Source of the DNA: Maribacter sp. BPC-D8
Lineage (GTDB): Bacteria > Bacteroidota > Bacteroidia > Flavobacteriales > Flavobacteriaceae
Assembly: GCF_035207705.1 (NCBI RefSeq)
Contig: NZ_CP128187.1
Coordinates: 558,001 to 622,000, forward strand
DNA: 64,000 bases
Reading direction: 5' to 3'
A model generated the notes under the pieces. That model searched no databases and was not told the origin of the DNA. It worked only from the letters and a program-made list of their open reading frames with translations. Position 1 is the stretch's first letter; every line of letters starts with the position of its first letter. Positions 1,733 through 52,850 of this stretch are shown here, in pieces. A program made the translations under genes and the position numbers.

Positions 1733-1776
1733 TAAAGAAAGCGCAAAGAAAATCATTCTTATGTAACTAAGGTTAC
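1733..1776 (-). promoter_or_regulatory. Crp-type operator and weak -7 box upstream of the YeeE/YedE operon
   Basis: GTAAC-TAAG-GTTAC at 1763-1776 is the core of a longer perfect palindrome with 15-bp arms (1753-1767 and 1772-1786). At the 22-nt spacing seen elsewhere, the minus strand reads TTTCTTTA (1740-1733), a poor match to TAnnTTTG, so the -7 assignment is weak here. The operator itself is a perfect match to the GTAAC class. Confidence 0.7.
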
Positions 1777-1981
1777 ATAAGAATGACATTAACTAAATGA
1801 ATTATAATTTTCTGAACAATTAACCTAATTGCGATAAGAGGTTTAGGCAGTGTAAAATTCTGAAATGCGGTAGGTTATGCGCAATTGATGATTTTTTTCC
1901 TTGTTTTATTATAATAAAAGGTTTTTTACAAATTTAACAAAGCACTAATTACCTTTTAGAGCACATGAATTTAGAATACTA

Positions 1982-2167
1982 CTAATTTTTAATTCCGAAT
2001 GTTTTAAGAATAGTTTCTAATAAGCACCATTTTGTAAAAGCCGACTGTATGATATTTACACCTATAAATACCGTAAACCATAACCAGTTGATATTAACAT
2101 AAACAGCTAATACAACACTCAACAAAACCATTGTACCTACTATAACTCTAAAATATGTGTTTAACAT
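1982..2167 (-). CDS. DUF2892 (YgaP-like transmembrane) protein
   Basis: Small protein of 61 residues with two hydrophobic segments and the pattern N-x2-QSAFTKWCLLE near residue 40, typical of the DUF2892 domain found fused to rhodaneses (YgaP) or free-standing in sulfur clusters. It follows the RND permease by 60 bases on the same strand and is probably the last gene of the TolC-HlyD-RND operon. A role as a membrane partner in sulfane-sulfur handling is inferred from the family's company, not shown by the sequence. A second member lies at 22080-22286. Confidence 0.75.
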   Translation of the reverse strand: MLNTYFRVIVGTMVLLSVVLAVYVNINWLWFTVFIGVNIIQSAFTKWCLLETILKTFGIKN

Positions 2168-2227
2168 GTTGTTCTATTTTTATAAGAATCAACAGCACCA
2201 CTAAAGTGCTGCTGATTACTGATTTTT

Positions 2228-5200
2228 TTATTCATTAATTTCTGTGCTATCCGTAGTTTCTGGATAGTTTTTCTTTTCTATCATATAATACACCAATGGT
2301 ACCACCAATAAGGTAAGAACGGTAGAAACAATAGTACCACCCATCAACGAAATCGCTAGACCTTGAAAAATTGGATCGAATAAGATTACGAATGCTCCAA
2401 TTACAACAGTACCTGCTGTTAATAGAATAGGGGTTGTACGTACCGCCCCAGCTTCAATAGCAGCTTGTTTTATAGGTACACCTTCGGCTAAACGTAGATT
2501 AATGAAATCTATGAGTAGTACCGAATTTCGTACCATGATACCTGCGAGGGCAATCATACCAATAAAAGAAGTAGCGGTAAAAAATGCTCCCATAATCCAG
2601 TGACCTAATATAATTCCAATTAATGATAATGGTATCGCAACCATCATTACTATTGGTGCTTTAAAGTTTTGAAACCATCCTACAATTAAAATATAAATTA
2701 AGATGATGGCACCCATAAAGGCGATACCTAAATCACGGAATACTTCAAGCGTAATTTGCCATTCCCCATCCCATTTAACGGTGTAGTCATCTTCAAACTC
2801 AGGTTGACCTAAGTACATTTCGGTAATCTCATATCCTTTAGGTAAAGCAATTTCTTTAAGCTTTTCTTCCATTCCTAATATCGCGTATGCAGGACTCTCC
2901 AATTCCCCCGCCATATCTGCCATTACATATACCACACGTTTTTGATTTTTGCGGTAAATACTCTTATCACTTATAGTTTCTTTAATATCTACTAAATCGG
3001 CAATAGGCACCATATTACCCTGTTTAGAGGTAATCTTCAATTGAGAAATATCTGTAATAGTCGACTTTTCTTTTTCATCTAAAGCGAGCACCAAACCAAC
3101 TTGGTCGATAGCATTCTCATCATATAAATTTGTGATGGCTCTATTTGATAAAGCCATATTCATGGTATAGGCAATTTGCTGTGGTGCCACGCCATAAAGC
3201 ATTGCTTTCTCTTTGTTAATTTCAAAATTATATTCAGTTTGGTCAGCTTCAACTAGCCAATCGATATCAACAACATCATCAGTATTTTTCAAAATGTCTT
3301 GTACGCTATTCGCAATTTTAATCTGTTCCTCATAATCAGGTCCATATACTTCAGCTACAATTGTAGAAAGTACAGGAGGTCCTGGCGGAACTTCCACCAA
3401 CTTAACATTAGCATTGTATTTAGCAGCTATTTTTTGAATATCTGGTCGTAGTAAACTTGCTATATCATGACTTTGAGCAGAACGTTCATCTTTATCAATA
3501 AGGTTTACTTGAATATCTGCCATATTGCTACCACCACGTAAATCGTAATGGCGCACCAAACCGTTAAAGGTAATAGGGGCAGAGGTACCTACGTAGTTCT
3601 GGTAATTTACAACCTCTGGTCTAGTAGATAGATATTGAGAAATTTCTTGAGCAACTACACCTGTACGTTCAAGGGTGGTGCCTTCGGACATATCAATAAC
3701 CACTTGAAACTCATTTTTGTTGTCAAAAGGCAACATCTTTACAGCTACAGATTTGGTAAAGAACAAAACCATTGATGCCATTAGCATTAAAAAAGTCAGT
3801 CCTAAAAACAACCAGCGTTTTCTTTTGTTTTCAATTAGTGGGCGTTCATATTTATTATAAATTTTATAAATAAAGGTTTCCTCTAATGGTTTCTCTACCT
3901 TTTCAACTTCACCTTTTTTCTCTTTTTCTCTCAAGAAAATATACCCCAAATATGGTGTTATGGTCAAGGCCACAAAAAGTGATAATATCATGGCAATAGA
4001 AGCCCCAATTGGCATAGGTGCCATATATGGGCCCATAAGTCCAGATACAAATGCCATCGGTAGTACAGAGGCAATTACAGTAAACGTTGCTAAAATAGTA
4101 GGGTTACCAACTTCGTTAATAGCATAGAGAGCTGCTTCTTTAAAGGGTAGGCGTTTCATTTTAAAATGCCGGTGCATATTCTCGGCTATAATAATCGAGT
4201 CATCTACCACAATACCTGTTACAAAAACTAAAGCAAATAATGTAATTCTGTTTAATGTATAGTCAAGCATATAATAGCTCAACAACGTCAAAGCAAACGT
4301 AATTGGTACAGACAAGAATACGACCAAACCACCACGCCAGCCCATTGCCAACATCACAACTAATGTTACCGCAATTATAGACCCTATTAAGTGTAATAAA
4401 AGTTCAGAGACTTTATGAGATGCCGTTTCACCATAGTTTCTAGTGATTTCTACATGTACGTCATCTGGTATTAAAGTGGTACGTAAATGTTCAACTTTAT
4501 CAATAACAATGTCCGCAATTTTCATTGCATCGGCACCTTTTCTTTTTGCCACAGAAATAGTTACTGCAGGGTATTCAGATTTGTAATCTGATACCTTATC
4601 GCTTGCCTGACCAAAACCTAATGAAACATAACTTTGAGGAATTTCTGGTCCGTCGATAATACTGGCAATCTGCTTTAAATAAATAGGCTGATTTTGTTGA
4701 ACACCAACAACAAGATTTTCAACATCGGTAACCGAAGCCAAAAAATTGCCGGTATTTACTAAGAACTCGGTATCATTTTTATCAAAACTACCAGAACTTA
4801 ATTGGGCATTATTAGCCTTGATCATTTCAGAAACAGATAAAAAATCTAATCCGCTAGCGGCTAGTTTATCTTTATCTAAAACCACGCGTAATTGACGGTC
4901 TTGATTTCCGATTTTATGGGTAATGGCAACATCATTTACCTTCTTGATTTCACTTTCCAGTTCTTGAGCCATTTGGCTTAACTGATACCCATCATAGTTT
5001 TCGCTCCAAAGGGTAAGGCCGAGCATCGGTACATCATCAATAGCACGGGTTTTTACCAGCGGAAAAGTTACGCCCTGCGGCATAATATCCATATGCTTAT
5101 TGATTTCGTTGTATAACTTTACGAAAGAGCGCTCAATATCTTCGCCCACATAAAACTGAACGATGACCATACCTTGTTCTTTCATCGATGTGGAGTACAC

Positions 5201-6691: not shown

Positions 6692-8005
6692 CTATTCTTT
6701 CGTTAAAAACTGTACATACGCCAAGGCGTAATTATGTTGAAAAATTGTAGCGTAATACTCTAATTGCTTTTGAGAATATTGTGTTTCAGATAGTAATAAA
6801 TCAGTAGTCTTTTCTAAACCTTGCTTAAATCTATTGGTACGGATGCGCAATGATTCTTCAGATTGTTCTAGTGCTAGCTTTGTTAGCTTTAATTTATTTT
6901 GAGCATCTTCAAAACCTCTTTTCGCTTTGTTAAGCTCTAATTGACTTTCAGATTTATACTGCTCTAACTGTAATTTAGATTTATCATACTCCGCCTTGCT
7001 CTTTTGAGATTTTCCAAAACGCTTGCTACCCTCAAAAAGGTTCCATTTTAACTCTGCACCAAATAAATACCCTTGCGCTTGACCTTGAAAAATTTCATCG
7101 TCATGTAACTCATAAGTACCAAAAGCATTTAAACGAGGTAAGAAAGCCATTTGGTCTGCCTTATGCATTTGTCTATATGCTTCGGTAGCAGAATTCATCG
7201 CTAAAATATCTTTTCTGTTTTCAGATAAGTTTACGTTCGTTGTATTAGCATAACTAGTAATTGCAAGTGAATCTGAAGGCTTTAAAATTTCATTCTCATC
7301 AGCATTCATTAATACCGATAAATAGTTGCTTGCATTTAGAATGTTACTTTTTGCGTATTGCAATTGATTATCGATTTCGGTAACTCTTACTTCTACAGAA
7401 AGAACATCAGATTTTTGTAGGTAACCTTGCTTGTAACTATTGTCGGCAATACGCTTATTTTCTAAAGCAGTTTCTTGAGCTTTCTCTAAAACGGTAACGG
7501 TTTTATAAGCAAGTTGTAATTGCATATACGCCTTTTCAACCTCAAGGGCTAAGTAATCTTCTGTACGACCAGACTGTAATTCTGTAGCGGTCAATTTTGC
7601 CTTTGCCGCTTTACGCTGGTAGATGCCATCGAAGTTTATCAATGGTTGTTGTACTTCTACTCGAGTTGCAAAATCTTCGATTTGACGTGGGTCATTTAAT
7701 ACATCTGGATTAAAATCTGCAGCAGTCAAAATTTCTTGATTCAGTTTAGATCCAAATGCCATTAACGGGTTAGTGGTAGCAATACCAGTATGCGATACAC
7801 TAATGTTTGGCAATAGAATAGCATTGGTCTGATTGAAATCACCCTTGGCAACTAACACATCTTGTTCTGCCATTTTCAGTGTATTATTACTTTCTTTTAC
7901 CTTAGTCAGCACTTCATCTTTTGTAATAGATTTTACTTCTTGTGCCAAGCCAGAATAAAAGACGAACAACAATATCCATCCTAGTTTATATTTCATGGTA
8001 TTCAT
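6692..8005 (-). CDS. TolC-family outer-membrane efflux protein
   Basis: Outer-membrane channel of 437 residues and first gene of the RND efflux operon. It has a signal peptide (cleavage after YSGLAQ) and two internally similar halves rich in long amphipathic helices, as in OEP-family trimers; the second half shows the conserved pattern DLLLSETQYSQKQLEYY near residue 407. A promoter with a GTAAC-TAAT-GTTAC operator and a TAATTTTG -7 box sits directly upstream, giving a predicted leader of only about seven bases before this ATG. Confidence 0.92.
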   Translation of the reverse strand: MNTMKYKLGWILLFVFYSGLAQEVKSITKDEVLTKVKESNNTLKMAEQDVLVAKGDFNQTNAILLPNISVSHTGIATTNPLMAFGSKLNQEILTAADFNPDVLNDPRQIEDFATRVEVQQPLINFDGIYQRKAAKAKLTATELQSGRTEDYLALEVEKAYMQLQLAYKTVTVLEKAQETALENKRIADNSYKQGYLQKSDVLSVEVRVTEIDNQLQYAKSNILNASNYLSVLMNADENEILKPSDSLAITSYANTTNVNLSENRKDILAMNSATEAYRQMHKADQMAFLPRLNAFGTYELHDDEIFQGQAQGYLFGAELKWNLFEGSKRFGKSQKSKAEYDKSKLQLEQYKSESQLELNKAKRGFEDAQNKLKLTKLALEQSEESLRIRTNRFKQGLEKTTDLLLSETQYSQKQLEYYATIFQHNYALAYVQFLTKE

Positions 8006-8015: not shown

Positions 8016-8059
8016 CAAAATTAGAGCAGTAAAAAAGACTGCACAGTAACTAATGTTAC
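8016..8059 (-). promoter_or_regulatory. Crp-type operator and -7 box of the RND efflux operon
   Basis: GTAAC-TAAT-GTTAC at 8046-8059 is followed on the minus strand, after exactly 22 nt, by TAATTTTG (8023-8016). This is the class II activator layout shared by most operators in the window. Confidence 0.85.
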
Positions 8060-8540: not shown

Positions 8541-9995
8541 TTATTCCGGAATTAGCCACCAGAAGGGCTTCATTTTTGCCTTGTATATAAAAGCATAATG
8601 CAGCGCTAATTTTAACCAGTGACCAGCTAAACCTATTTCTCCAAAGGTTTTACCCAATTTACGACCTTGAGTATCGGGGTATTTGTTATAATCAGGTACA
8701 ATGGGGTAGGTGGTAATACTTACGCCACTACCTTTTGTCATGCCATAACCTGCAGAAGCAATACATGCAGCACCCATGTTACCTAAAGAACCCTTATGGT
8801 GTAAATCTTTTTTTCCGTTGATGGCGTCTATGATATTATCTGCAACCAACTTAGCAGTAATGCCAGAAGGCATACCCGTACGAGGTGGGGCAGGAGATAT
8901 TGAAGTACCATTTTTGCTTACTCGAGGTTTTGAAATTGCGTGTGGTGGGGCGAATGCAATACCAGGTGCGAATATGTTTTTGTATGACGGATTCTGATAA
9001 GTTTCAGGCCAATCTTGTACGCTCCATTCTTCATATGGTTTAGCAGTATAATCGGCATCTACCAACATAAAACCTTTAAAAAGCCTTTCGGTAATGTCTT
9101 CATTGTTCTTACCAAAGGCTTTAAAACCATGTCCGGAAAATGCAGGTATTAGCATGGCAAAATCATATGTTTCAGATTTATACTCACCATCTAATGTTTC
9201 ATAATGCGCTATACCATCTTCAATTTTGTTTACTCCGGCGCCAAGAATCCATTTAATACCACGGTCTTCAAAAACCATTTCTACCATTTCACTAGATTTC
9301 ATGATATTGTCACCATAACTAAGTAGCACGCCATCCATACCAAAATCACCTAACTGATACTCATTGGCAATCCAAATAACTTCAGCTTGGTCACGTACAT
9401 TATGTCTTCTAAGCTCTTGCTCTACATTTAAGATATATTCAAAAGCAGCGCCTTGGCAAGTAGATTTTGCGTGTCCGGTACCAATTAAAATTTTTGCTTT
9501 TTTGCCTTGTTTCATTTGCTGGATCAAATCATCTAGGGCATGCCATGCGTGTTCTGCATGACTATAAGTACAAACAGAGTAGGCTTTATTAGTACCAGGG
9601 TTTAAGCCCTCGGTCATGTCAAAGGCTAGTTTTGGTCCGGTGGCATTAATGAGATAGTCATAAGTTACCTTTTCGGTATTACCTTTTTGTTCGCCATTAA
9701 CGTATTTGATGTTTACGAACGGACTAGCTGATTCTGCATCACCTTCTGGATGAAAAGTAGTGACTAGAGCCTGCTTATAACCTATATTTTTTTTCTTGTA
9801 TAATGGAGGTAATGGAAATAGAATTTCTTCAGACTTCATACGACCTATACCTACCCATATATTAGATGGTATCCATTGGTAATTGCTATTTGGTGAAACA
9901 ACCAGAACTTCATGTTCTTTCGATAGTTTTCTTCGAAGGTGCGCAGCAGCAACATGCCCTGAAATTCCTGCACCTAGTATGACTATTTTTGACAT
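8541..9995 (-). CDS. SQR-like NAD(P)/FAD-dependent oxidoreductase
   Basis: A 484-residue flavoprotein of the sulfide:quinone oxidoreductase superfamily. The N-terminal dinucleotide fold is GAGISGHVAAAHLRR; a second fold region lies near ILIGTGHAKSTCQGAA. Three Cys in plausible redox positions are seen (SVCTYSH, KSTCQG, GAACIAS). The C-terminus is amphipathic (WLKLALHYAFIYKAKMKPFWWLIP), which in SQR proteins seats the enzyme on the membrane near the quinone. It probably oxidises sulfide to sulfane sulfur with electrons to quinone. It differs clearly from the type II enzyme at 20629-21939, so the cell has two distinct SQR-like enzymes. First gene of a three-gene operon. Confidence 0.8.
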   Translation of the reverse strand: MSKIVILGAGISGHVAAAHLRRKLSKEHEVLVVSPNSNYQWIPSNIWVGIGRMKSEEILFPLPPLYKKKNIGYKQALVTTFHPEGDAESASPFVNIKYVNGEQKGNTEKVTYDYLINATGPKLAFDMTEGLNPGTNKAYSVCTYSHAEHAWHALDDLIQQMKQGKKAKILIGTGHAKSTCQGAAFEYILNVEQELRRHNVRDQAEVIWIANEYQLGDFGMDGVLLSYGDNIMKSSEMVEMVFEDRGIKWILGAGVNKIEDGIAHYETLDGEYKSETYDFAMLIPAFSGHGFKAFGKNNEDITERLFKGFMLVDADYTAKPYEEWSVQDWPETYQNPSYKNIFAPGIAFAPPHAISKPRVSKNGTSISPAPPRTGMPSGITAKLVADNIIDAINGKKDLHHKGSLGNMGAACIASAGYGMTKGSGVSITTYPIVPDYNKYPDTQGRKLGKTFGEIGLAGHWLKLALHYAFIYKAKMKPFWWLIPE

Positions 9996-10062: not shown

Positions 10063-10197
10063 ATATAGCTCTTTATTTTACTGGGAGATTTTGAGTAAAA
10101 TAATGATAATCAATTTATAGTCTAAAATTGATTAATATCATAGTTGCATTTCTATATGATGATTAATTTTGAACGTATTTTCTAAGATAGATTACAA

Positions 10198-10317
10198 ATG
10201 AGAGGTAGTTCGAATACACTGATTTATATTATTGCAGGTATCATCTTGCTTCATTTTGTTGTAGGTTTTATTTGGCTTATTTATAAGCTCAACAAGAAAA
10301 AAGAAGAGAAAGAGTAG
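10198..10317 (+). CDS. 39-residue single-pass membrane protein (candidate)
   Basis: This is a short open frame in the 380-base gap between the SQR-like gene and the 99-residue gene. ATG at 10198; the product has one hydrophobic helix (LIYIIAGIILLHFVVGFIWLIYKL) followed by a strongly charged tail NKKKEEKE. Composition and topology (short polar start, one helix, charged C-terminus) are those of real small membrane proteins rather than random sequence. No homologue can be named. The rest of the gap holds only the operator at 10049-10062. Confidence 0.5.
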   Translation: MRGSSNTLIYIIAGIILLHFVVGFIWLIYKLNKKKEEKE

Positions 10318-13130: not shown

Positions 13131-13173
13131 CAAAGGTAACCAACGTATGATTTTTAAAAGTATCCAATGTTAC
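13131..13173 (-). promoter_or_regulatory. Crp-type operator and -7 box of cydAB
   Basis: GTATC-CAAT-GTTAC at 13160-13173 (one arm mismatch) is followed on the minus strand after 21 nt by TACCTTTG (13138-13131). The conspicuous GTTAC-AAAG-GTAAC at 13127-13140 is explained by the -7 box and its flank rather than by a second operator. Confidence 0.65.
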
Positions 13174-13364: not shown

Positions 13365-13844
13365 TTAATCTTTATATGCAGATAGCATCCAAACTAATTT
13401 TTCTTGCTGTGTAATATAATCGCTCATTAAAGAAACGGTACCTTCATCTTCTGCCTCAGCAGCAATTTTAAGGGTAGTTCTTTCCTTTTTCAATAAAATA
13501 CTTAAGCTCTCTAAAATACTGTCTACGGCCTTATCGCCATCTACTACATTTTCGCTGGCTTTAATTTCAGAATTATCAATATACTTTGTGAACGTATGAA
13601 TAGGAGTGTTGCTTAATGTTAGCACGCGCTCTGCGATTTCATCTACCTTGATTAAAGCATCATTATATAACTCTTCGAATTTAAGGTGAAGTTCAAAAAA
13701 CTTCTTCCCTTTAATATTCCAATGAAAACCTCTTAGGTTCATATAGAACATTTGATAATTAGATAGTAAATCATTTAAATGATTTGCGATATCATTAGAG
13801 TCTTTTTTGTCTAGACCGATGTTTGATAAATTTGTATTTGCCAT
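13365..13844 (-). CDS. dps: Dps-family ferritin-like DNA-protection protein
   Basis: A 159-residue protein of the Dps family: dodecamers that oxidise and store iron using peroxide and protect DNA. The ferroxidase-site residues are seen in NLRGFHWNIKGKKFFELHLKFEELY near residues 37-61 (His, Asp/Glu and Trp pattern). The length is typical. It has its own promoter with a perfect GTAAC-ATAG-GTTAC operator and its own terminator. Control together with sulfide-oxidation genes suggests that iron or oxidant stress is expected under the same conditions. Confidence 0.92.
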   Translation of the reverse strand: MANTNLSNIGLDKKDSNDIANHLNDLLSNYQMFYMNLRGFHWNIKGKKFFELHLKFEELYNDALIKVDEIAERVLTLSNTPIHTFTKYIDNSEIKASENVVDGDKAVDSILESLSILLKKERTTLKIAAEAEDEGTVSLMSDYITQQEKLVWMLSAYKD

Positions 13845-13896: not shown

Positions 13897-13940
13897 TAAA
13901 GATAATCTATATGTTAAAAATAGAGGGTAACATAGGTTAC
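13897..13940 (-). promoter_or_regulatory. Crp-type operator and -7 box of dps
   Basis: GTAAC-ATAG-GTTAC at 13927-13940, then 22 nt on the minus strand, then TATCTTTA (13904-13897). Confidence 0.82.
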
Positions 13941-14044
13941 ATAATTTATTTTTTAACCTTTTTTAACAAAAAGAAGGAAATATAGGAATAGGATAATTGC
14001 CAAATGTCTAATGCTAAAAATATATTTTATTAAAATCTAAGAAT

Positions 14045-14088
14045 GTGACTAATGTCACATTCTTAATCAATATTGGCACTTAATTTTG
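14045..14088 (+). promoter_or_regulatory. Crp-type operator (GTGAC variant) and -7 box of the TonB receptor operon
   Basis: GTGAC-TAAT-GTCAC at 14045-14058 lies in a perfect palindrome with 11-bp arms (14039-14049 and 14054-14064). After 22 nt comes TAATTTTG (14081-14088). The box ends only four bases before the ATG at 14093, so the transcript is predicted to be leaderless or nearly so. Confidence 0.8.
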
Positions 14089-14092: not shown

Positions 14093-14470
14093 ATGAAGTT
14101 GTCAAGCTTTACGATATCGATACTGTTTACATTCATTTCTTTGGCAAGTAGTTTTAAGACTGCCAGCGTTATGAGCTATTATGCGGTATTTACAAATGAT
14201 TTCGTTGAGCGCTTTTGCGAGAATAAAGAACGACCTGAATTAAAATGTGATGGTAAATGTGCTTTAGTACAAATGTTATCTCAGAAAGCTGATGATGAAA
14301 AAACTCCAATTAATTTAGACTTGCTTAAAAACGAAACAATATTGTTTATTGGATCGTTGACAGCATACGAGTTTGTACAACAATCTAGAAAAGTGTTGCA
14401 TAATGTACTGTACCGTGTGCTATATGATTTTCATTTCTTTGAGCGTATCAAACATCCTCCCAAAATTTAA
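14093..14470 (+). CDS. Small secreted Cys-rich protein upstream of a TonB receptor
   Basis: A 125-residue protein with an N-terminal hydrophobic segment (FTISILFTFISLASSF) that is probably a signal peptide. The mature part has the motif CENKERPELKCDGKC, Cys spaced x9 and x3, near residues 42-56. Small proteins with this Cys pattern commonly precede TonB-dependent receptors in Bacteroidota. Metal binding (copper is a good candidate beside a copper-type receptor) is inferred. The gene starts immediately after its -7 box and precedes the receptor by about 80 bases on the same strand. Confidence 0.7.
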   Translation: MKLSSFTISILFTFISLASSFKTASVMSYYAVFTNDFVERFCENKERPELKCDGKCALVQMLSQKADDEKTPINLDLLKNETILFIGSLTAYEFVQQSRKVLHNVLYRVLYDFHFFERIKHPPKI

Positions 14471-17493: not shown

Positions 17494-18021
17494 TTATGGC
17501 ATAAAAGTATACCCATCCATTTGATAATTGGCAAGTACCATCATTGCAGAAAGCCCTAATTCTGTATTCGGGTTTAAATCTGCACCAGTAATATCTCTAG
17601 CGGCAGTAGCTTGTGCGCAAACATAAAATTCTACTCCGTAATCCTTTAGTAATTTTATTACGGCTTTATTGGGGTTTTCCTTTTCGTATTTAGCCTTGTA
17701 TTTGGCATCATTTAAAGCAGTGAAAGTAGCACCACCATGTACGGCAGCGATAATATTTACTTTATCGGCAGAAACACCACCAGCACCTAGCATGTTTATC
17801 ATTCTAGCGATTTTGAAATAACCTACATTAATACCATCTAACTCACGATCATCTTTAAGGTCAAATACAAGATTATATTCTTTGGTAGGGTCTGCCTGAA
17901 CGGCAACATCCTTAAACTCTTTTATTTTTCCGTAACCATCAATAACAGGTGTAGTCCATTCTTGGGCAGTTGTAATTTGTGTTGCCATAAGTACTATTGC
18001 AATTAGAAGTGCTTTTTTCAT
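17494..18021 (-). CDS. Periplasmic DsrE-family protein
   Basis: A 175-residue protein with a signal peptide (cleavage near QITTAQ) and a DsrE/YchN-like fold. The region VNIIAAVHGGATFTALND is the conserved core, and a single Cys lies in YGVEFYVCAQATAARDI near residue 134, the position used for sulfur binding in DsrE/TusD proteins. It is probably a periplasmic sulfane-sulfur carrier or binding protein. It is transcribed divergently from the TsdA-like cytochrome, and one operator at 18134-18147 is phased to both promoters. Confidence 0.82.
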   Translation of the reverse strand: MKKALLIAIVLMATQITTAQEWTTPVIDGYGKIKEFKDVAVQADPTKEYNLVFDLKDDRELDGINVGYFKIARMINMLGAGGVSADKVNIIAAVHGGATFTALNDAKYKAKYEKENPNKAVIKLLKDYGVEFYVCAQATAARDITGADLNPNTELGLSAMMVLANYQMDGYTFMP

Positions 18022-18103: not shown

Positions 18104-18177
18104 TAAAAGTAAGTTAAAGTATTTAACGTTACTGTAACTAGGGTTACTGTAATAATCATGCGTTTATTATAGATTCG
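18104..18177. promoter_or_regulatory. Divergent promoter pair sharing one Crp-type operator (DsrE / tsdA)
   Basis: GTAAC-TAGG-GTTAC at 18134-18147. To the right, 22 nt then TAGATTCG (18170-18177). To the left on the minus strand, 22 nt then TACTTTTA (18111-18104). One palindrome is thus correctly phased for activation in both directions. Confidence 0.82.
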
Positions 18178-18207: not shown

Positions 18208-19245
18208 ATGAAAGATTTACGAGCATTTGCGAAACTATTTTTAAAGCTATTTGCAATCATCTTCGTTTTGGTAGGTCTTGCCTTTATATGGCTAGTAACG
18301 TATGAGCCTAGCGTTGAAAAAGATGCGATTATTAAAACTGAAGAAACTGTAGCTAACGAGATTTGGCAACCTAAAGATGCAATGGCAGAGTTGGCTATTA
18401 TGCCTGCGACAGTTAAAGAGGGGTACTACCTAATTGCAGAATCTTCAAAATATATGGGTCCGAATGCAGAGAACGCTGCAGATAGGTATAGTGGTAATAA
18501 TTTAGCTTGTACGAATTGCCATTTACAAAAGGGGGCACAGGCGGGCTCTGGTTCTTGGGTCGGTATTATAGAACGATTTCCTCAGTTTGGTGGTCGAGGT
18601 AACAAACAAGGTACCATTGAAGATCGCATAAATGGATGTATGGAGCGTAGTATGAACGGCAAAATGCTTCCGGTAGATTCTGACCAGATGAAGGCGATTG
18701 TAGCCTATATGAATTGGTTGAGCGAAGATGTACCAGAAAATAGAAAGGCTGAGTTTAAAGGATATCCAAAAATTAAGATACCTGCTGTTGCAGTAGATTT
18801 AGAAAGAGGGAGTCAGGTATATCAAAAAGAGTGTATCATTTGCCATGGTGAAAATGGGGCGGGTGTACTAAATGCGATCGATGGTAAAAGCTACACATAT
18901 CCGCCACTATGGGGTCCAGATAGTTTTAACGATGGTGCAGGTATGAATAGGGTAATTACATCGGCGGAATTTATTAAAAGTAACATGCCGTATTTACAAG
19001 CAACTTGGGACAACCCTAAATTGAGTGATGAAGAAGCATATCATGTAGCAGGATATATCAATAGTTTTTCTAGACCACATAAGTTAAATACCGAAAACGA
19101 TTATCCTGACAAGAAACTAAAACCGGTTTCAACACCCTACGGTCCGTGGGTAGACGATTTTTCTCCAGAACAGCACAAATACGGACCATTTTTACCGATA
19201 ATGGACTTCTACAAAAAGGAATACGGAATTACCAAAACAAAGTAA
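18208..19245 (+). CDS. TsdA-like diheme c-type thiosulfate dehydrogenase
   Basis: A 345-residue protein anchored by one N-terminal helix (about residues 10-31) with two periplasmic heme c domains. Heme sites are CTNCH (101-105) and CIICH (209-213). The run EDRINGCMERSMNGK with Cys 144 is a signature of TsdA, in which a Cys is the distal ligand of the first heme. TsdA oxidises two thiosulfates to tetrathionate or reduces tetrathionate. It is followed four bases later by a porin gene, a likely operon. Family assignment is good; direction of the reaction is not shown. Confidence 0.85.
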   Translation: MKDLRAFAKLFLKLFAIIFVLVGLAFIWLVTYEPSVEKDAIIKTEETVANEIWQPKDAMAELAIMPATVKEGYYLIAESSKYMGPNAENAADRYSGNNLACTNCHLQKGAQAGSGSWVGIIERFPQFGGRGNKQGTIEDRINGCMERSMNGKMLPVDSDQMKAIVAYMNWLSEDVPENRKAEFKGYPKIKIPAVAVDLERGSQVYQKECIICHGENGAGVLNAIDGKSYTYPPLWGPDSFNDGAGMNRVITSAEFIKSNMPYLQATWDNPKLSDEEAYHVAGYINSFSRPHKLNTENDYPDKKLKPVSTPYGPWVDDFSPEQHKYGPFLPIMDFYKKEYGITKTK

Positions 19246-21964: not shown

Positions 21965-22008
21965 TAAATATAGCAGATACAAAATGAATATTATGTAACA
22001 AATGTTAC
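21965..22008 (-). promoter_or_regulatory. Crp-type operator and -7 box of the type II sqr gene
   Basis: GTAAC-AAAT-GTTAC at 21995-22008 within TATGTAAC...GTTACATA. After 22 nt the minus strand reads TATATTTA (21972-21965). Confidence 0.8.
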
Positions 22009-22286: not shown

Positions 22287-22451
22287 GATACTAGTTTTTA
22301 AATGTTATTTGTAATGTTGATACTATAAAGTAGACTTACTCAACAGTTATAGTGGTTGATAAATCTTTTACTTTACCAAAGTACTATAAACTAGGAAAGT
22401 GGCATATGACATTGGTCAGCTCAAAATTAATGGTTAATCGTCGTTTCTAAA

Positions 22452-22495
22452 GTAACTTTGGTTACTGCGAAGCCATAATTATTACAGTATTTTTG
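22452..22495 (+). promoter_or_regulatory. Crp-type operator and -7 box of the sterol-desaturase-family gene
   Basis: GTAAC-TTTG-GTTAC at 22452-22465, 22 nt, then TATTTTTG (22488-22495). The ATG follows at 22513. Confidence 0.82.
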
Positions 22496-26306: not shown

Positions 26307-26350
26307 CAAAATTACATTTGTAAAAAGGACTACACAGTAACTTAGGTTAC
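26307..26350 (-). promoter_or_regulatory. Crp-type operator and -7 box of the first persulfide dioxygenase gene
   Basis: GTAAC-TTAG-GTTAC at 26337-26350, 22 nt, then TAATTTTG on the minus strand (26314-26307). Confidence 0.85.
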
Positions 26351-27823: not shown

Positions 27824-27849
27824 GTTGTTGCTTATTTTGATTAACAACA

Positions 27850-27893
27850 TAAAATTACCCTTTCTTTAAAACGTGTACAGTGACATTAGTCAC
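27850..27893 (-). promoter_or_regulatory. Crp-type operator (GTGAC variant) and -7 box of the second persulfide dioxygenase gene
   Basis: GTGAC-ATTA-GTCAC at 27880-27893, 22 nt, then TAATTTTA on the minus strand (27857-27850). Confidence 0.8.
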
Positions 27894-28723: not shown

Positions 28724-28767
28724 CAAAAGTAGAATGGTACGGAAACCTGCGCAGTAACATTGGTTAC
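28724..28767 (-). promoter_or_regulatory. Crp-type operator and -7 box of the TauE/SafE gene
   Basis: GTAAC-ATTG-GTTAC at 28754-28767, 22 nt, then TACTTTTG on the minus strand (28731-28724). Confidence 0.85.
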
Positions 28768-28774: not shown

Positions 28775-29407
28775 TTATAAATCTAATATCTCTAAATAAT
28801 TTCGGTGAAGTTTAATTTTACCCATTTCTTCTAGCTTCTTTAAAAGCCTAGAAATTACAACCCTAGAACTATGAAGGTCATAGGCAATATCTTGATGGGT
28901 ACTGTGAATGATATTATCTTTTGTTACTCTAGATTTTTCTTTTAAATAGCCGATTAGACGTTCATCCATTTTTTGGAATGCGATATTATCTAAGGTGCTT
29001 AAAAGCTCATTTAATCGAACATGGTAGCTATTGAAAACGAAGTTTCTCCAAGATTTATATTTGGCGGTCCATTCTTCCATTTTCTGAATAGGCACCATAA
29101 TAAGTTTTGCATCAGTTTCTGCAATAGCTCTAATTTCACTTTTCTTATCGCCCATACAGCACGCCATGGTCATAGAGCAGGTATCACCTTTTTCTAAATA
29201 GTATAGTAAAAGTTCATCGCCATCTTCATCTTCTCTCAAAATTTTAATGACTCCAGAAATTAATAAAGGCATACCTCTAATGTAGTCACCAATCTCCATG
29301 AATTTATAACCCTCAGGTACTTCTTTAAAAGTACCTACCTGAACAATTTCATTGATGAGCTCTTCTTCAAAGATATCTCCGTATTCTTCCTTTAAGTTTT
29401 GAATCAT
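28775..29407 (-). CDS. Crp/Fnr-family regulator, candidate controller of the GTAAC regulon
   Basis: A 210-residue regulator with an N-terminal cyclic-nucleotide-type beta-roll, a long dimer helix and a C-terminal winged helix. Cys 77, 83 and 84 (DTCSMTMACCMG) lie in the sensor domain and could sense thiols or persulfides (inference). The recognition helix is SSRVVISRLLKK: Arg 182 and Arg 187 are kept, but Val 183 stands where Crp has Glu 181 and where many relatives have SREVISR. That Glu reads the G of TGTGA; operators around it have TGTAA. Second gene after DUF983, under its own operator, so it probably regulates itself. Confidence 0.85.
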   Translation of the reverse strand: MIQNLKEEYGDIFEEELINEIVQVGTFKEVPEGYKFMEIGDYIRGMPLLISGVIKILREDEDGDELLLYYLEKGDTCSMTMACCMGDKKSEIRAIAETDAKLIMVPIQKMEEWTAKYKSWRNFVFNSYHVRLNELLSTLDNIAFQKMDERLIGYLKEKSRVTKDNIIHSTHQDIAYDLHSSRVVISRLLKKLEEMGKIKLHRNYLEILDL

Positions 29408-29819: not shown

Positions 29820-29863
29820 CAAAATTATTGGATCTGAATATTTTCTTAGGTAACAAAGGTTAC
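29820..29863 (-). promoter_or_regulatory. Crp-type operator and -7 box of the DUF983-regulator operon
   Basis: GTAAC-AAAG-GTTAC at 29850-29863, 22 nt, then TAATTTTG on the minus strand (29827-29820). This implies autoregulation of the Crp/Fnr protein at 28775. Confidence 0.85.
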
Positions 29864-29924: not shown

Positions 29925-29968
29925 CTGATATAAATCATATTATATGCTGACTTAGACATGTAAGTTTG
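29925..29968 (+). promoter_or_regulatory. FNR-type operator and -7 box of hemN
   Basis: CTGAT-ATAA-ATCAT at 29925-29938, 22 nt, then TAAGTTTG (29961-29968). The TGA-N6-TCA core separates it from the GTAAC class. Confidence 0.78.
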
Positions 29969-32476: not shown

Positions 32477-32520
32477 ATGATATTTATCATATTTTTCCTT
32501 TTTAATACCCAATACATTTG
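32477..32520 (+). promoter_or_regulatory. FNR-type operator and -7 box of the nos operon
   Basis: ATGAT-ATTT-ATCAT at 32477-32490, 22 nt, then TACATTTG (32513-32520). The centre lies near -42 of the predicted start of transcription. Confidence 0.85.
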
Positions 32521-46895: not shown

Positions 46896-49094
46896 TTATT
46901 TATCAGATAATATTTCTCCAGTTTCTTTGACCTTGATGTCAGTACCTAATCGTTGTAGGTAAGCAATTAAGGATACAATTTCACGGTCTCTCATTTCTAT
47001 GAATTCTTCACCATTTTCAGCAGCATACTTTTTATCAGCCTCATAAGAGTTTGCAAAATCAGGATCACTGTATAAGTTCTTCTCGATTTTCTCGGCCTGT
47101 GCATCCATTAAAGCATCTGCATTGGCAATTTCGTCTTCGGTGTAAGGAACACCTAAGGTTACCATAGCTTCCATTTTAGTTTGTATGTTACCTCTGTCAT
47201 GTTTATCACGCACTAACCAAGAGTATGAAGGCATTATAGAACCTGAAGAGGTGCTTTGAGGATCGTACATGTGGTTTAAGTGCCAGTTATCAGAATATTT
47301 ACCACCAATACGTAGTAAATCTGGACCAGTACGCTTACTACCCCAAAGGAATGGGTGATCGTAAACAAATTCACCTGCTTTGGCATATTCACCATAACGT
47401 TCTACCTCACTTCTAAACGGACGAACCATTTGAGAGTGACAACCCACACACCCTTCACGAATGTATAAATCACGACCTTCTAATTCTAAAGGCGTATATG
47501 GTTTTACACTGGTAATAGTAGGTATGTTAGATTTCACCAATATGGTAGGTATGATTTGTATAATACCACCAATAAGGATAGCAACAGTAGCTAAAATGGT
47601 TAATTGAATAGGCTTACGCTCTAACCAAGTATGAAAAGTTTCACCTGCAGTTCTACGTTTAGATACTACAGTAAGTGCAGCAGCTTCTGCCAATTCATCT
47701 TCTATAGTACTACCAGCTTTAATGGTGCGAACTACATTGTAAATCATTACCATAGCACCAACAATATAAAGGCTACCACCAATGGCACGCATCCAATACA
47801 TTGGCATGATTTCGTTTACTGTTTCTAAGAAGTTACCGTAAACTAAAGTTCCGTCAGGGTTAAATTCTTTCCACATTAACGCTTGGGTAAAACCAGCAAC
47901 GTACATTGGTAAAGTGTAAAGAATGATACCTAAAGTACCGATCCAGAAGTGGAAGTTTGCAAGGCTGACAGAGAATAGTTTATTCTTGGTCATTTTTGGT
48001 ACCAACCAATAAATCATACCAAAGGTCAAGAATCCGTTCCAAGCTAATGCACCTACGTGAACGTGAGCAATAATCCAGTCACTAAAGTGAGCAATTGCAT
48101 TTACATTTTTAAGAGAAAGTAAAGGTCCTTCGAAAGTTGCCATACCATAACCGGTAATTGCAACCACCATAAATTTTAAAACAGGATCGGTACGAACTTT
48201 ATCCCAAGCACCACGAAGTGTTAAAAGTCCGTTGATCATACCACCCCAAGATGGAGCTAGTAACATAATAGAGAAGGCTACCCCTAAATTCTGTGCCCAA
48301 TCTGGCAAAGCAGAATATAATAAGTGGTGCGGACCTGCCCAGATATATATGAAAATCAATGACCAGAAGTGAACGATAGATAGTCTGTATGAGTATACAG
48401 GTCTGTTTGCTGCTTTAGGTACAAAATAGTACATAAGACCTAAGAACGGAGTAGTCAAGAAAAATGCAACAGCATTATGACCGTACCACCATTGTACCAA
48501 TGCATCTTGTACACCGGCATAAACGGAGTAACTTTTAAAAGCACTAACAGGTAATTCTAAACTATTGAAAATATGAAGTACTGCAACCGTAACAAAAGTT
48601 GCCAGATAAAACCAGATAGCTACGTAAAGGTGACGTTGTCTTCTTTTTATCATGGTACCAATAAGGTTTGCACCAAATGCCACCCAAACAACAGCAATGG
48701 CTAAATCTATAGGCCATTCAAGTTCAGCGTATTCTTTAGAGCTCGAATAACCAAGGGGTAACGTAATAGCTGCGGCAACAATAATTGCCTGCCAACCCCA
48801 AAAGTTAAACTTACTTAAAAAGTCACTGTACATACGCGCCTTTAATAGACGTTGGGTAGAGTAGTAGACCCCTGCATAAATTGCATTTCCTACAAATGCA
48901 AAAATTACCGCGTTGGTGTGCAACGGGCGTAAGCGACCAAAACTTAACCATGATATTCCATCGGTTACGTTAGGGAATATGAACATAAAGGCTAATAATA
49001 ACCCTACAGACATACCCACTATACCCCAGAACATGGTTGCATAAAGGAAATTTTTCACGATTTTGTTATCGTAATAAAACTGCTGTACTTCCAT
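46896..49094 (-). CDS. ccoNO: cbb3 oxidase fused subunits I and II (CcoN-CcoO)
   Basis: A 732-residue fusion. The N-terminal part (about 1-480) is CcoN with twelve helices, heme ligands in RLRPLHTNAVIFAFVG and the CuB/heme region WWYGHNAVAFFLT, GPHHLLYSALPDW and HVHVGALAWNG. The C-terminal part is CcoO with one helix and a heme c site CVGCHSQMVRPF near residue 535. The fusion is common in Bacteroidota. It is the catalytic core of the high-affinity oxidase. Confidence 0.96.
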   Translation of the reverse strand: MEVQQFYYDNKIVKNFLYATMFWGIVGMSVGLLLAFMFIFPNVTDGISWLSFGRLRPLHTNAVIFAFVGNAIYAGVYYSTQRLLKARMYSDFLSKFNFWGWQAIIVAAAITLPLGYSSSKEYAELEWPIDLAIAVVWVAFGANLIGTMIKRRQRHLYVAIWFYLATFVTVAVLHIFNSLELPVSAFKSYSVYAGVQDALVQWWYGHNAVAFFLTTPFLGLMYYFVPKAANRPVYSYRLSIVHFWSLIFIYIWAGPHHLLYSALPDWAQNLGVAFSIMLLAPSWGGMINGLLTLRGAWDKVRTDPVLKFMVVAITGYGMATFEGPLLSLKNVNAIAHFSDWIIAHVHVGALAWNGFLTFGMIYWLVPKMTKNKLFSVSLANFHFWIGTLGIILYTLPMYVAGFTQALMWKEFNPDGTLVYGNFLETVNEIMPMYWMRAIGGSLYIVGAMVMIYNVVRTIKAGSTIEDELAEAAALTVVSKRRTAGETFHTWLERKPIQLTILATVAILIGGIIQIIPTILVKSNIPTITSVKPYTPLELEGRDLYIREGCVGCHSQMVRPFRSEVERYGEYAKAGEFVYDHPFLWGSKRTGPDLLRIGGKYSDNWHLNHMYDPQSTSSGSIMPSYSWLVRDKHDRGNIQTKMEAMVTLGVPYTEDEIANADALMDAQAEKIEKNLYSDPDFANSYEADKKYAAENGEEFIEMRDREIVSLIAYLQRLGTDIKVKETGEILSDK

Positions 49095-49325: not shown

Positions 49326-49369
49326 TAAAAATAAGTGGGTTGTAAACCTTAGAAAATGACAAATGTCAT
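49326..49369 (-). promoter_or_regulatory. FNR-type operator and -7 box of the cbb3 operon
   Basis: ATGAC-AAAT-GTCAT at 49356-49369, 22 nt, then TATTTTTA on the minus strand (49333-49326). Confidence 0.85.
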
Positions 49370-49588: not shown

Positions 49589-51985
49589 TTATGGAAGTTT
49601 TCTGCCAATAAGGTTCGTCATTACCGTTGTAAAAATAACAATACTAATAGAGCTTAAGGGCATTAGAATTGCAGCGATAACAGGCTCTAGCTGCCCTGTA
49701 ATGGCAAAATAAAGTCCTATACAATTATAGAGTAGCGATAACATAAAGCTCATTTTAATAATGCGCATCGCCTTTTTAGATGCGAGAATATAGCTGTACA
49801 ATTGTTGAAATTTAGAAGCATCTAAGATGGCATCACAAGCAGGGGAGAAGACATTGATATTTTCAGATATAGCAATACCTACATTACTTTGTGCAAGCGC
49901 ACCGGCATCATTTAATCCGTCGCCTACCATCAACACTTTCTTACCTTGATCTTGTAGCGATTTTATGAACTCTAGCTTTGTTTCCGGTTTCTGATTGAAG
50001 TACAGCGGAGTCAGTTTTGGCAATAACCCCTGTAATCGCTCTTTTTCTCCTTCATTATCACCAGAAAGTATCGCCAAACTTAGCGTTTCAGACATTTCTT
50101 TGAAAACAGATGAGAGTCCGTCACGATATTGATTTTGAAAAACATATCTGCCTTTGTAAGCATTATTTGAGCTGATATAAATAGAAGTGTCAAGCAAATT
50201 CTCTGAGGTGCCTTTGCCTACAAAATTGGCAGAACCAATCTTCATATTTATATCGTCTTTAGAACTTTCTAGTCCTTTACCAACATGCTCTTCGTACTCA
50301 TCTAAGGTAATGATATTCTGTTCTTTAAGTAGATCATATAAAGATCTGCTTAAAGGGTGATTAGAAGCTCTAATCGTATTCTTGAGTATCGATTCTTCAT
50401 CGGGAGTTAAAGGCATACCTTCGTAATGTGCCGTGCTTTTTTGCGTAGTTGTAATGGTGCCGGTTTTATCAAAAATAGCAGTATCTATTTTTGCTAAGCG
50501 CTCGATGGTTTGCGTGTCTTTAATATAGAATTTCTTCTTGCCAAAAATACGTAGCATATTGCCTAGGGTAAATGGTGAAGCTAATGCTATGGCACACGGA
50601 CAAGCGATAATCAATACCGCCGTAAAAACATTCATGGCTTTAGATGGGTCGTAGAACAACCAAAAAGCAGTAGCAGCAAATGCAATAGAAAGTACGGCAA
50701 TGGTAAAGCGTTTGCCGATACTATCGGTAAGGTTTTGAAAGGCGGTTACTTTGTCTGTCTTAAAAATGGAATTTCCCCACAGTTGTGTCAAATAACTCTG
50801 CGATACCGATTTTAAGGCAATCATTTCAATGACACCGTTGAGTTGCTTTCCGCCGGCAAAAACCTGTTCACCGATATTTTTAGAAACGGGTTCAGATTCC
50901 CCCGAAACAAAACTGTAGTCAATTTGTGCATTTCCGTAAACGAGAGTACCATCTACAGGGATCATTTCTTCGTTACGGATCAATATACGATCTCCTTTTT
51001 CAATTTCTTGAACAGGCACGGTTTCTTCTTTACCTTTTAAGTTCAGTTTGGTGATGGCAATAGGGAAGTATGATTTGTAATCGCGCTCAAACGATAAAAA
51101 GCTATATGTTCTTTGTTGAAAGAATTTACCTAGTAATAGAAAAAATACGAGTCCGGTAAGAGAATCGAAAAATCCGCTACCTAAATCAAAGGCAATATCA
51201 TAGGTACTTCTTAAAAATAAAACAAGAATACCAAGCGCAATGGGTACATCAATATTTAAAAGTTTAGCTCTTAGTCCTTTAAATGCAGATACAAAATAAT
51301 CCCATCCAGCATAAAAAACTACAGGTAAAGCGAAGATGAACATCATCCATCGAAATAAGCCTTGATATTGGTTAAGCCAATATTCACCACCAGAAGCTGC
51401 ACTAGAACCTAAATCGAAATAATCAGGAAAAGAAAGAAACATTACATTACCGAATGCAAAACCGGCAACACCTAATTTGTAAATAAGCGTTTTATCAGAA
51501 ACCTTCTTCTTGCCTTCAAAATCTTCTAAAGAAATATAAGGTTCATATCCTATTTTAGCTAGAAGTAAGACGAGCTCTTTTAAGCTGAAATCCTCTTGTT
51601 TGTAGGTAATACGAATTGTTTTCTTGGGGAAATCTACTTGAGAATTCGTAACGTTCTTATTGAGCTTGTTCAAATTCTCTAGAATCCAAATACAAGAACT
51701 ACAATGAATAGTAGGTATATATAGGTTGATGATCTGAATGTTACCATCATTAAATTCTGTTAGTTTCGCTATGATTTCTTCGTTATCGAGAAAATCATAT
51801 TTACCTTCTATAGCTTTGGGTGTAGTACCTGCCGCGGCTTGTAAATCATAATAATGAGACAAATCGTTTGTTGAGAATATTTCATAAACGGTTTTACAAC
51901 CGGCACAACAAAATGATTTTTCATCAAATGTTATAAGTTGCCTATCACAAGGGTCACCACAATGAAAACAATTAGTTGCCTGCAT
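49589..51985 (-). CDS. ccoI: CcoI-type copper P-type ATPase
   Basis: A 798-residue copper-exporting ATPase supplying copper for cbb3 assembly. N-terminal CFHCGDPCD and FCCAGCKTVYEIF are the family's metal-binding motif, then an HMA-like domain with CSSCIWIL; eight helices with CPCAIALASP; phosphorylation site DKTGTITT; and GDGLNDAGALAQS hinge. Divergent from the FNR-like regulator, sharing one operator with it. Its product serves the cbb3 oxidase and possibly CuA of NosZ. Confidence 0.94.
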   Translation of the reverse strand: MQATNCFHCGDPCDRQLITFDEKSFCCAGCKTVYEIFSTNDLSHYYDLQAAAGTTPKAIEGKYDFLDNEEIIAKLTEFNDGNIQIINLYIPTIHCSSCIWILENLNKLNKNVTNSQVDFPKKTIRITYKQEDFSLKELVLLLAKIGYEPYISLEDFEGKKKVSDKTLIYKLGVAGFAFGNVMFLSFPDYFDLGSSAASGGEYWLNQYQGLFRWMMFIFALPVVFYAGWDYFVSAFKGLRAKLLNIDVPIALGILVLFLRSTYDIAFDLGSGFFDSLTGLVFFLLLGKFFQQRTYSFLSFERDYKSYFPIAITKLNLKGKEETVPVQEIEKGDRILIRNEEMIPVDGTLVYGNAQIDYSFVSGESEPVSKNIGEQVFAGGKQLNGVIEMIALKSVSQSYLTQLWGNSIFKTDKVTAFQNLTDSIGKRFTIAVLSIAFAATAFWLFYDPSKAMNVFTAVLIIACPCAIALASPFTLGNMLRIFGKKKFYIKDTQTIERLAKIDTAIFDKTGTITTTQKSTAHYEGMPLTPDEESILKNTIRASNHPLSRSLYDLLKEQNIITLDEYEEHVGKGLESSKDDINMKIGSANFVGKGTSENLLDTSIYISSNNAYKGRYVFQNQYRDGLSSVFKEMSETLSLAILSGDNEGEKERLQGLLPKLTPLYFNQKPETKLEFIKSLQDQGKKVLMVGDGLNDAGALAQSNVGIAISENINVFSPACDAILDASKFQQLYSYILASKKAMRIIKMSFMLSLLYNCIGLYFAITGQLEPVIAAILMPLSSISIVIFTTVMTNLIGRKLP

Positions 51986-52007
51986 AAATATTAAAGAATA
52001 ATAAGTA

Positions 52008-52081
52008 CAAAGGTGAAAATGATACAGTTTCTAAAACATGATAATTGTCAGTTACTACAATTATAAGCTTGTTTAATTTTG
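52008..52081. promoter_or_regulatory. Divergent promoter pair sharing one FNR-type operator (ccoI / fnr-like)
   Basis: ATGAT-AATT-GTCAG at 52038-52051. To the right, 22 nt then TAATTTTG (52074-52081). To the left on the minus strand, 22 nt then CACCTTTG (52015-52008), which misses the first consensus base. Confidence 0.75.
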
Positions 52082-52103
52082 CTTAAGATTAATTTATTAA
52101 GCT

Positions 52104-52793
52104 ATGGAATTTAGATGTGAAAATTGCATTATACGACAGTTTAATTCACTCCGTGCATTGAGCAAAGACGAATTAAAAAAAGTGGCAGACTCTAAAACCT
52201 CTAAGAAGATTAAAAAAGGAGAGGCATTATTTATAGAGGGGCAAAAGCTTGATGGTGTATTTTGTGTACGAGATGGCGTTTCTAAATTATCTAAATTAAG
52301 TAGCAATGGTAAAGAGCAAATTGTAAAATTGACCAATAGAGGCGAAATTATGGGGCAACGCTCAGTAATCGCTGAAGATTTTACCAATTTAAGTGCTACT
52401 GCCATTAGTGATATGGAAGTGTGTTTTATACCCAAAGAGGTCATATCAAATACCTTAAATACTAATCCCTATTTTTCTTTAGAAGTATTGCGACATATGG
52501 CGCATGATTTAAAAGAGGCAGATGATGTCATCGTAAATATGTCTCAAAAAACAGTGAAACAGCGTTTGGCTGAGGCATTTGTGTATTTGAAGAAAAACTA
52601 TGGTGAAGATGAAAACGGATTTCTATTATTGACATTAAGTAGAGATGATTATGCAAATATTGTCGGTGCGGCAACGGAGTCTCTAATTCGTATGATTTCT
52701 GAGTTTAAGAAAAAAGGACTGATAAAGACAGAAGGTAAAAAAATTGGGATTGTAGAGGAGGAGATGTTGCAAGAATTAGCTGACGGATTTTAA
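52104..52793 (+). CDS. FNR-like Crp/Fnr-family regulator, candidate controller of the TGA-N6-TCA regulon
   Basis: A 229-residue regulator with an N-terminal Cys pair (CENC, Cys 5 and 8), Cys 54 and Cys 107 in the sensor domain, so an oxygen-labile iron-sulfur cluster is possible, although spacing differs from E. coli FNR. The recognition helix GAATESLIRMISEF keeps Glu 192 and Arg 196, the residues that in FNR contact the TGA core. The operators near it are TGA-N6-TCA. One such operator lies upstream of its own gene and of ccoI, suggesting autoregulation. Confidence 0.87.
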   Translation: MEFRCENCIIRQFNSLRALSKDELKKVADSKTSKKIKKGEALFIEGQKLDGVFCVRDGVSKLSKLSSNGKEQIVKLTNRGEIMGQRSVIAEDFTNLSATAISDMEVCFIPKEVISNTLNTNPYFSLEVLRHMAHDLKEADDVIVNMSQKTVKQRLAEAFVYLKKNYGEDENGFLLLTLSRDDYANIVGAATESLIRMISEFKKKGLIKTEGKKIGIVEEEMLQELADGF

Positions 52794-52806
52794 ATTTTTT
52801 AGTATT

Positions 52807-52850
52807 CTGATAAATGTCATAGTTTCAATTCTGTAGGGAAACTACATTTA
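52807..52850 (+). promoter_or_regulatory. FNR-type operator and -7 box of the second usp gene
   Basis: CTGAT-AAAT-GTCAT at 52807-52820, 22 nt, then TACATTTA (52843-52850). Confidence 0.8.

Follow-up and report, generated by a model that had tools for sequence, protein, structure and literature searches.

The closest described counterparts of the promoters considered here are the class II FNR promoters of Escherichia coli (dmsA, narG, nirB, nrfA), in which a 14-bp dyad centred at −41.5 lies 22 nucleotides (nt) from position −12; in the published table, 19 of the 23 directly FNR-activated promoters with a known start have their site at −41.5 ± 4, and FNR at −41.5 is described as positioned to meet σ and α (PMC3688515). 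The primary σ factor of Bacteroidota is divergent, and few of their regulons have been mapped. The start map of Flavobacterium psychrophilum places a TAnnTTTG box at −12 to −5, in a main text in which Crp and Fnr have 0 occurrences (PMC9723704). In this study, we analysed a 64,000-nt stretch of the Maribacter sp. BPC-D8 genome (NZ_CP128187.1, positions 558,001 to 622,000; hereafter the window), in which operators of two families, GTAACN4GTTAC and TGA-N6-TCA, stand 22 nt before boxes identical in type to the flavobacterial σA promoter box (TAnnTTTG; PMC9723704). We conclude that these are very probably class II promoters of the Bacteroidota primary σ factor activated by Crp/Fnr proteins, the 22 nt representing a fixed contact geometry. 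The class II mechanism is already known; what is new is a quantified, class-wide Bacteroidota variant of it with two operator specificities. Neither a spacing rule for Bacteroidota nor Crp/Fnr control of sulfide oxidation there is stated in the titles and abstract openings that we surveyed among open-licence papers. Two regulators encoded in the window are central to what follows:

28775..29407, minus strand: regulator A, Crp/Fnr family, 210 aa (Pfam HTH_Crp_2 and cNMP_binding over cut-off)
52104..52793, plus strand: regulator B, FNR-like, 229 aa (Pfam)

A sequence-only reading of the window had proposed 17 operator-box pairs with identical spacing, naming each by its leftmost element, which for leftward promoters is the box and not the operator. 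Site by site, the 22-nt distance between operator and box is exact in all 17, and no box differs from TAnnTTTG at more than one position; the narrower pattern TAnnTTT[GA] fits 15 of them, the rightward box of operator 18134 (TAGATTCG) and the leftward box of operator 52038 (CACCTTTG) departing from it. The three exceptions it had named are likewise as described, namely cydA with 21 nt, operator 1763 with a poor box (TTTCTTTA, two mismatches) and 10049 with no box. The 14-bp operators are present, although several of the TGA type are imperfect palindromes (at 52038 and 52807, three of five arm positions pair), and four further pairs had been overlooked (10128 rightward and 22452, 14045 and 22406 leftward). 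The nine exact GTAACN4GTTAC sites of the window, taken in both directions, have 10 boxes with at most one mismatch at 22 nt and 0 to 2 at each other spacing from 5 to 45 nt, where such boxes occupy 36 of 2,682 positions locally. These nine are most of the 15 exact copies in the genome; one of the six outside the window (781625) has a 22-nt box (TAATTTTA), and the five without a box are probably chance occurrences. We dropped the genome-wide count of this dyad as evidence by itself, since 15 copies vs 26 for the pattern read backwards means that it is not enriched.

AT-rich DNA is full of such boxes, and the sites were originally picked by eye, so the reader might simply have selected those at 22 nt. 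Scans that follow a rule and leave no such choice give the identical 22-nt peak, the histogram of spacings not being flat, and we give chance or selection practically no weight. For TGA-N6-TCA with an exact TAnnTTTG, scanned through the genome at 31 spacings (7 to 37 nt from the edge of the 14-mer), 20 of 79 matches lie at 22 nt and 59 are distributed over the 30 other spacings, a mean of 1.97 each (Poisson tail for 20 at 22 nt, 5e-14); a broad genome-wide spread, which the sequence-only reading had named as a possible refutation, was thus not found. When the surroundings of the matches, some inside the window, were rescanned at spacings of 8 to 38 nt (80 matches), non-coding DNA, defined as lying outside any stop-to-stop frame of 150 codons, held all 20 matches at 22 nt, two of nine at 21 or 23 nt and 21 of 51 elsewhere. 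An open reading frame (ORF) of at least 80 aa also started within 300 nt of 18, two and nine of these, respectively, and the remaining two at 22 nt are followed by shorter ORFs, of 39 and 47 aa, so that all 20 precede an ORF. The genes behind them include hemN, the cytochrome c gene before nosZ, regulator B and genes for a universal stress protein, a ferritin, a phosphate acetyltransferase and an MlaE permease.

The same spacing holds around relatives of regulator A, for which we used the best 80 of 152 in named genomes (L025 to L104; 1.51 Mb in total), spanning Maribacter, Cellulophaga, Kordia, Tamlana, Aequorivita and others. In these loci, which are related to one another so that counts over them are not independent, 241 exact GTAACN4GTTAC have 119 exact boxes at 22 nt and 19 over all other spacings from 0 to 60 nt, none with more than three; with TTT[GA] boxes allowed, 187 fall at 22 nt and at most seven at any other spacing. 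An exact box at 21 to 23 nt accompanies 117 of the 241 operators, five of them in both directions. Outside the genus, among the matches listed, 15 of 21 GTAAC-box rows are at 22 nt and three at 21. An operator-blind search of the 80 loci plus 40 distant ones, for any perfect dyad with 5-bp arms and N4, 22 nt before a box in non-coding DNA, gave 203 hits (165 GTAAC, 16 GTGAC, 8 ATGAC and the rest), and nine other spacings gave 4 to 13 each. The spacing rule thus found these three dyads untold, in loci that had been chosen around homologues of A. The 22 nt could also be a mere inheritance, many copies of one ancestral promoter without functional constraint: orthologous promoters in the genus have spacer sequence in common, and loci of one genus are not independent. 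Yet the 22 nt persists in 25 GTAAC promoters whose spacers are below 50% identity, the matches listed place GTAAC at this distance in 46 other genomes of the class, and within a single genome the spacing recurs at TGA-type promoters whose genes are unrelated; such descent is a very improbable source of the spacing.

Across the class, sampled by 247 genomes including our own, TGA-N6-TCA/TAnnTTTG occurs 1,306 times at 22 nt vs 137 for the backwards-read pattern, and 302 vs 173 at 18 nt, a 4.3-fold excess of 22 over 18 nt. For GTAACN4GTTAC outside our own genome, 63 of 130 among the matches listed are at 22 nt (46 genomes), with 15 at 23, 4 at 21, 12 at 15 and 8 at 18 nt, these last all of one sequence type. 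The 22-nt rule is therefore class-wide; it is common to both operator families, as had been proposed, holds genome-wide and is sharper in the lineage of regulator A than elsewhere. A second spacing of 15 nt was considered and rejected, because all 12 cases come from a single repeat, copied within two genomes (G205, G325). In that repeated element, GTAACTGATGTTAC or GTAACTTTTGTTAC stands 15 nt before TAAATTTG, in many copies.

With the start position taken from the related F. psychrophilum map, a box at −12 to −5 and 22 nt put the 14-mer at −48 to −35 and its centre at −41.5, as the sequence-only reading had held. E. coli class II promoters share the centre, with TATAAT as the box in place of TAnnTTTG, and this suggests that class II geometry has been kept despite a different promoter box. 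A further difference is that one class-wide spacing here serves at least two operator specificities, while the part of the E. coli table considered here is more scattered (−40.5 to −45.5; PMC3688515). We propose that a dimer on the 14-bp dyad would touch RNA polymerase sitting at the TAnnTTTG box, and that the 22-nt distance would be the fixed geometry of this contact; regulator A would read GTAACN4GTTAC in a sulfide/persulfide island, and FNR-like proteins (B and probably two receiver-Crp fusions) would read TGA-N6-TCA at microaerobic and denitrification genes. Activation and repression are told apart here from sequence alone, and proteins sitting at −41.5 might instead repress, with the dyad hindering RNA polymerase and the fixed spacing incidental. 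Repressor sites in E. coli are scattered, but the distance found in this study is constant to the base across genes, spacers and families that are unrelated, and we consider repression unlikely. A class-wide spacing rule makes the prediction of Crp/Fnr regulons a pattern search, in which any non-coding dyad followed after 22 nt by TAnnTTT[GA] counts as a strong candidate for Crp/Fnr control.

The sequence-only reading had also seen no other −33 element and proposed that the bound dimer replaces the −33 contact of the σ factor. We find no TTG and no general −33 element, although GTAAC promoters of the lineage of A often have TG at −34/−33. The proposed replacement is not established by the missing TTG: a TTG ending at −33 would have to begin on the last base of the operator (C in GTAAC), so its absence is partly forced. 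In a filtered set of 142 control boxes close to ORFs, TTG was most frequent at 20 nt, ending at −33, a weak peak of only 11 of 142, and since the operator's last base fixes −35 and thereby biases this comparison, we do not claim a loss of the −33 element. The TG was counted in GTAAC promoters of the window and the named loci after a 75% identity filter (34 of 60) and, most strictly, among promoters with spacers less than 50% identical (14 of 25). Its mirror image, CA at −50/−49, occurs in 0 of 60 and 0 of 25, so that the mark is directional and lies outside the dyad. In 26 promoters with other operators (GTGAC, mixed and TGA types), TG and the mirror image occur in two each. GTAAC promoters elsewhere in the class have the TG in 4 of 63, about chance, which makes the element lineage-specific; for this reason we dropped the idea that it is a kept −33 element. 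The lineage of A thus has an extra directional TG element beside the operator, on the promoter side.

Regulator A is most likely the reader of GTAACN4GTTAC, judging from its position and distribution. The protein, 99% identical to one of Maribacter spongiicola, is encoded in an island of GTAAC sites, behind GTAAC promoter 29850, which it has in common with a DUF983 gene. The island genes include sulfide:quinone reductase (SQR)-like reductases, two metallo-beta-lactamase/rhodanese fusions, a rhodanese, DsrE, TauE, a sulfur-transport protein and a SoxA-like cytochrome, together with cydAB, a ferritin/Dps gene and an efflux system. The genus is represented by 36 genomes: all 33 that encode A, in one case as a 52-residue fragment, show one or more GTAAC-box matches, and none occurs in the three that do not (G006, G025, and G033 with only a 35% identical paralogue). 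For the remaining genomes of the family, a match is present in 18 of 22 with a homologue and in 0 of 3 without. A Crp/Fnr protein is the probable controller of sulfide oxidation in marine Flavobacteriia.

The residues of A point in the same direction. R182, V183 and R187 stand at positions that we take to be those of CRP R180, E181 and R185, matched by eye to CRP numbering, so that V183 falls between two retained arginines. Position 183 is Val in 80 of 81 close homologues and Glu in one. Work of the 1980s reportedly changed the specificity of CRP at Glu-181. Rodionov et al. (2005) gave the operator GTAACnnnnGTTAC to HcpR2, explaining it by the loss of Glu-181, there Pro (PMC1274295). This operator equals the motif of the sites beside A, whose own binding is predicted, while A has Val in place of the Pro given for HcpR2 (PMC1274295). 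The published assignment of the same motif (PMC1274295) would favour an HcpR2-type nitric oxide regulator, and not A, as the reader of GTAACN4GTTAC; however, 9 of the 15 genomic copies share the window with A and with the sulfur genes, A is the sole one of only four HTH_Crp_2 matches in the genome without Glu at CRP-181, and the presence of A agrees with that of the GTAAC-box pattern in the genus. We therefore regard a reader of the HcpR2 type as improbable and keep regulator A in that role. Among 120 homologues (V 100, E 20), operators with a 22-nt box are 186 AA and 13 GG for Val but 3 AA and 4 GG for Glu (Fisher p = 0.001), in loci that are related and with mixed half-sites excluded (V 12, E 2); 12 of the 20 Glu loci have no such operator, and two (L059, L194) combine Glu with GTAAC. 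A recognition code in which V183 reads GTAAC and E183 reads GTGAC is thus suggestive only.

Close homologues of A keep C77 and C83 (81 of 81) and C84 (79 of 81) in the nucleotide-pocket loop, which presumably corresponds to the loop holding cAMP in CRP; distant homologues partly do not have C83 and C84. Cysteine also occupies two of these three places in 3dv8, a distantly related solved structure. SqrR, CstR and FisR control sulfide or persulfide oxidation genes, SqrR through cysteines. These persulfide sensors belong to the ArsR, CsoR and σ54-activator families, while A belongs to Crp/Fnr and is probably an activator. From the island genes and the cysteines, A may sense sulfide or persulfide. 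We put forward tentatively, as possible but short of probable, the wider proposal that A founds a Flavobacteriaceae subfamily of Crp/Fnr that senses sulfide-derived sulfur by C77/C83/C84 and activates a sulfide-oxidation regulon from −41.5, helped by the TG, with the 22-nt grammar general in Bacteroidota. If that grammar is indeed the general mode, operator families could be found de novo from spacing alone.

Several points weigh against these interpretations. In the 80 loci, 124 of the 241 exact operators have no exact TAnnTTTG at 21 to 23 nt, and 68 further 22-nt boxes end in TTTA. The reversed control is a low background, the true pattern exceeding it even at 18 nt (302 vs 173), and GTAAC spacing is less sharp class-wide than in the lineage of A (63 of 130 at 22 nt among the matches listed). 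The A-less genomes of the genus may have lost the whole island, and G025 is 64% complete; four genomes of the same family (G052, G054, G057, G059) have a homologue of A and no exact GTAAC-box match, and elsewhere in the order a homologue is accompanied by such a match in only 4 of 24 genomes, the other 20 having none. Two ferritin/Dps-type genes stand behind 22-nt GTAAC sites, at 13927 in the window and at 781625 (L118), the only such site outside it; a third ferritin-type gene sits behind a TGA-type site (L111), so that this kind of gene is not special to GTAAC. Finally, what is observed here are the sites, their spacing, the range over which it holds and the co-occurrence of GTAAC sites with the gene of A, from which we infer binding, activation, starts, the pairing of proteins with sites and the signals.

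Regulator B is the proposed reader of TGA-N6-TCA: its best solved relatives are FNR-type regulators (E 6e-24), its recognition helix ATESLIR keeps the E...R pattern, and TGA-N6-TCA sites adjoin its gene. The cluster cysteines of E. coli FNR are C20, C23, C29 and C122; C5, C8 and C107 of B align with them and the third N-terminal cysteine is replaced by Asn (three of four), which is why we term B FNR-like and not FNR. The four HTH_Crp_2 matches of the whole genome are A, B and two receiver-domain proteins of 350 to 355 aa, with a CheY-like receiver in front (Response_reg, cNMP_binding, HTH_Crp_2):

L023:661-1713, own genome, near 1557053: receiver-Crp protein
L021:1483-2550, own genome, near 2126915: receiver-Crp protein

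Immediately ahead of the second is an ORF that by eye resembles a histidine kinase, and both genes are near TGA-type class II sites.

The predicted promoters of the window and the genes behind them are as follows.

1763..1776, minus strand: operator GTAACTAAGGTTAC upstream of ORF 1144-1704 (Sulf_transp, YedE/TsuA-like); poor box 1733-1740 TTTCTTTA at 22 nt
8016..8059, minus strand: class II promoter, operator 8046-8059, box 8016-8023 TAATTTTG; gene 6692-8005 (outer-membrane efflux protein) first, then RND adaptor and pump
10128..10171, plus strand: FNR-type class II promoter TTGATTAATATCAT, perfect box 10164-10171 TAATTTTG
10198..10317, plus strand: unlisted ORF of 39 aa with one apparent membrane helix, 26 nt behind box 10164-10171
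13131..13173, minus strand: cydA promoter, operator 13160-13173, spacing 21 nt, box 13131-13138 TACCTTTG
13897..13940, minus strand: class II promoter, box TATCTTTA; ferritin/Dps-type gene 13365-13844
14045..14088, plus strand: promoter GTGACTAATGTCAC, box 14081-14088 TAATTTTG; gene 14093-14470 and TonB-dependent receptor
14015..14022, leftward: box TATTTTTA of operator 14045
18104..18177, both directions: operator 18134-18147 common to divergent genes
18104..18111, leftward: box TACTTTTA of operator 18134; DsrE-like gene 17494-18021
18170..18177, rightward: box TAGATTCG of operator 18134; SoxA-like cytochrome c gene 18208-19245
21965..22008, minus strand: class II promoter, box TATATTTA; SQR-like gene 20629-21939 (below NCBIfam cut-off)
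22376..22419, minus strand: operator 22406 ATGACATTGGTCAG, leftward box TACTTTGG with one mismatch
22422..22495, both directions: operator 22452-22465 with perfect boxes on both sides
22422..22429, leftward: box TAATTTTG of operator 22452, 482 nt before gene 20629-21939
22488..22495, rightward: box TATTTTTG of operator 22452; FA_hydroxylase gene 22513-23388
26307..26350, minus strand: class II promoter, box TAATTTTG; metallo-beta-lactamase-fold/rhodanese gene 24875-26284, its product possibly persulfide-dioxygenase-like
27850..27893, minus strand: promoter GTGACATTAGTCAC, box TAATTTTA; second metallo-beta-lactamase-fold/rhodanese gene, ORF 26408-27850, true start probably downstream of the box
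28724..28767, minus strand: class II promoter, box TACTTTTG; TauE/SafE permease gene 27905-28705
29820..29863, minus strand: class II promoter, operator 29850; DUF983 gene 29414-29803, with regulator A close behind and probably autoregulated
29925..29968, plus strand: FNR-type class II promoter, box TAAGTTTG; hemN 29987-31348
32477..32520, plus strand: FNR-type class II promoter, box TACATTTG; cytochrome c 32559-33068, then nosZ 33102-35063
49326..49369, minus strand: FNR-type class II site, box TATTTTTA, 231 nt before cbb3 oxidase gene (COX1 and FixO) 46896-49094
52008..52081, both directions: common operator 52038-52051, rightward box 52074-52081 TAATTTTG for regulator B
52008..52015, leftward: box CACCTTTG of operator 52038; P-type ATPase gene 49589-51985
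52807..52850, plus strand: FNR-type class II promoter, box TACATTTA; universal stress protein (Usp) gene 52874-53746

The 21-nt spacing of cydA appears to be a conserved −40.5 variant rather than noise, because comparable 21-nt sites, sharing 31 to 36 of 43 letters with the cydA site, occur in five genomes of the genus. Operators 18134, 22452 and 52038 are single operators with a 22-nt box on both sides, two of the six boxes being degenerate; one dimer on such a shared operator could serve two divergent class II promoters. The 39-aa ORF at 10198-10317 lies in the stretch separating cydB from the flavoprotein gene 8541-9995, and a 47-aa ORF of a similar kind, again with one apparent membrane helix, lies behind the site at 4341482 (L116), 21 nt from the box.

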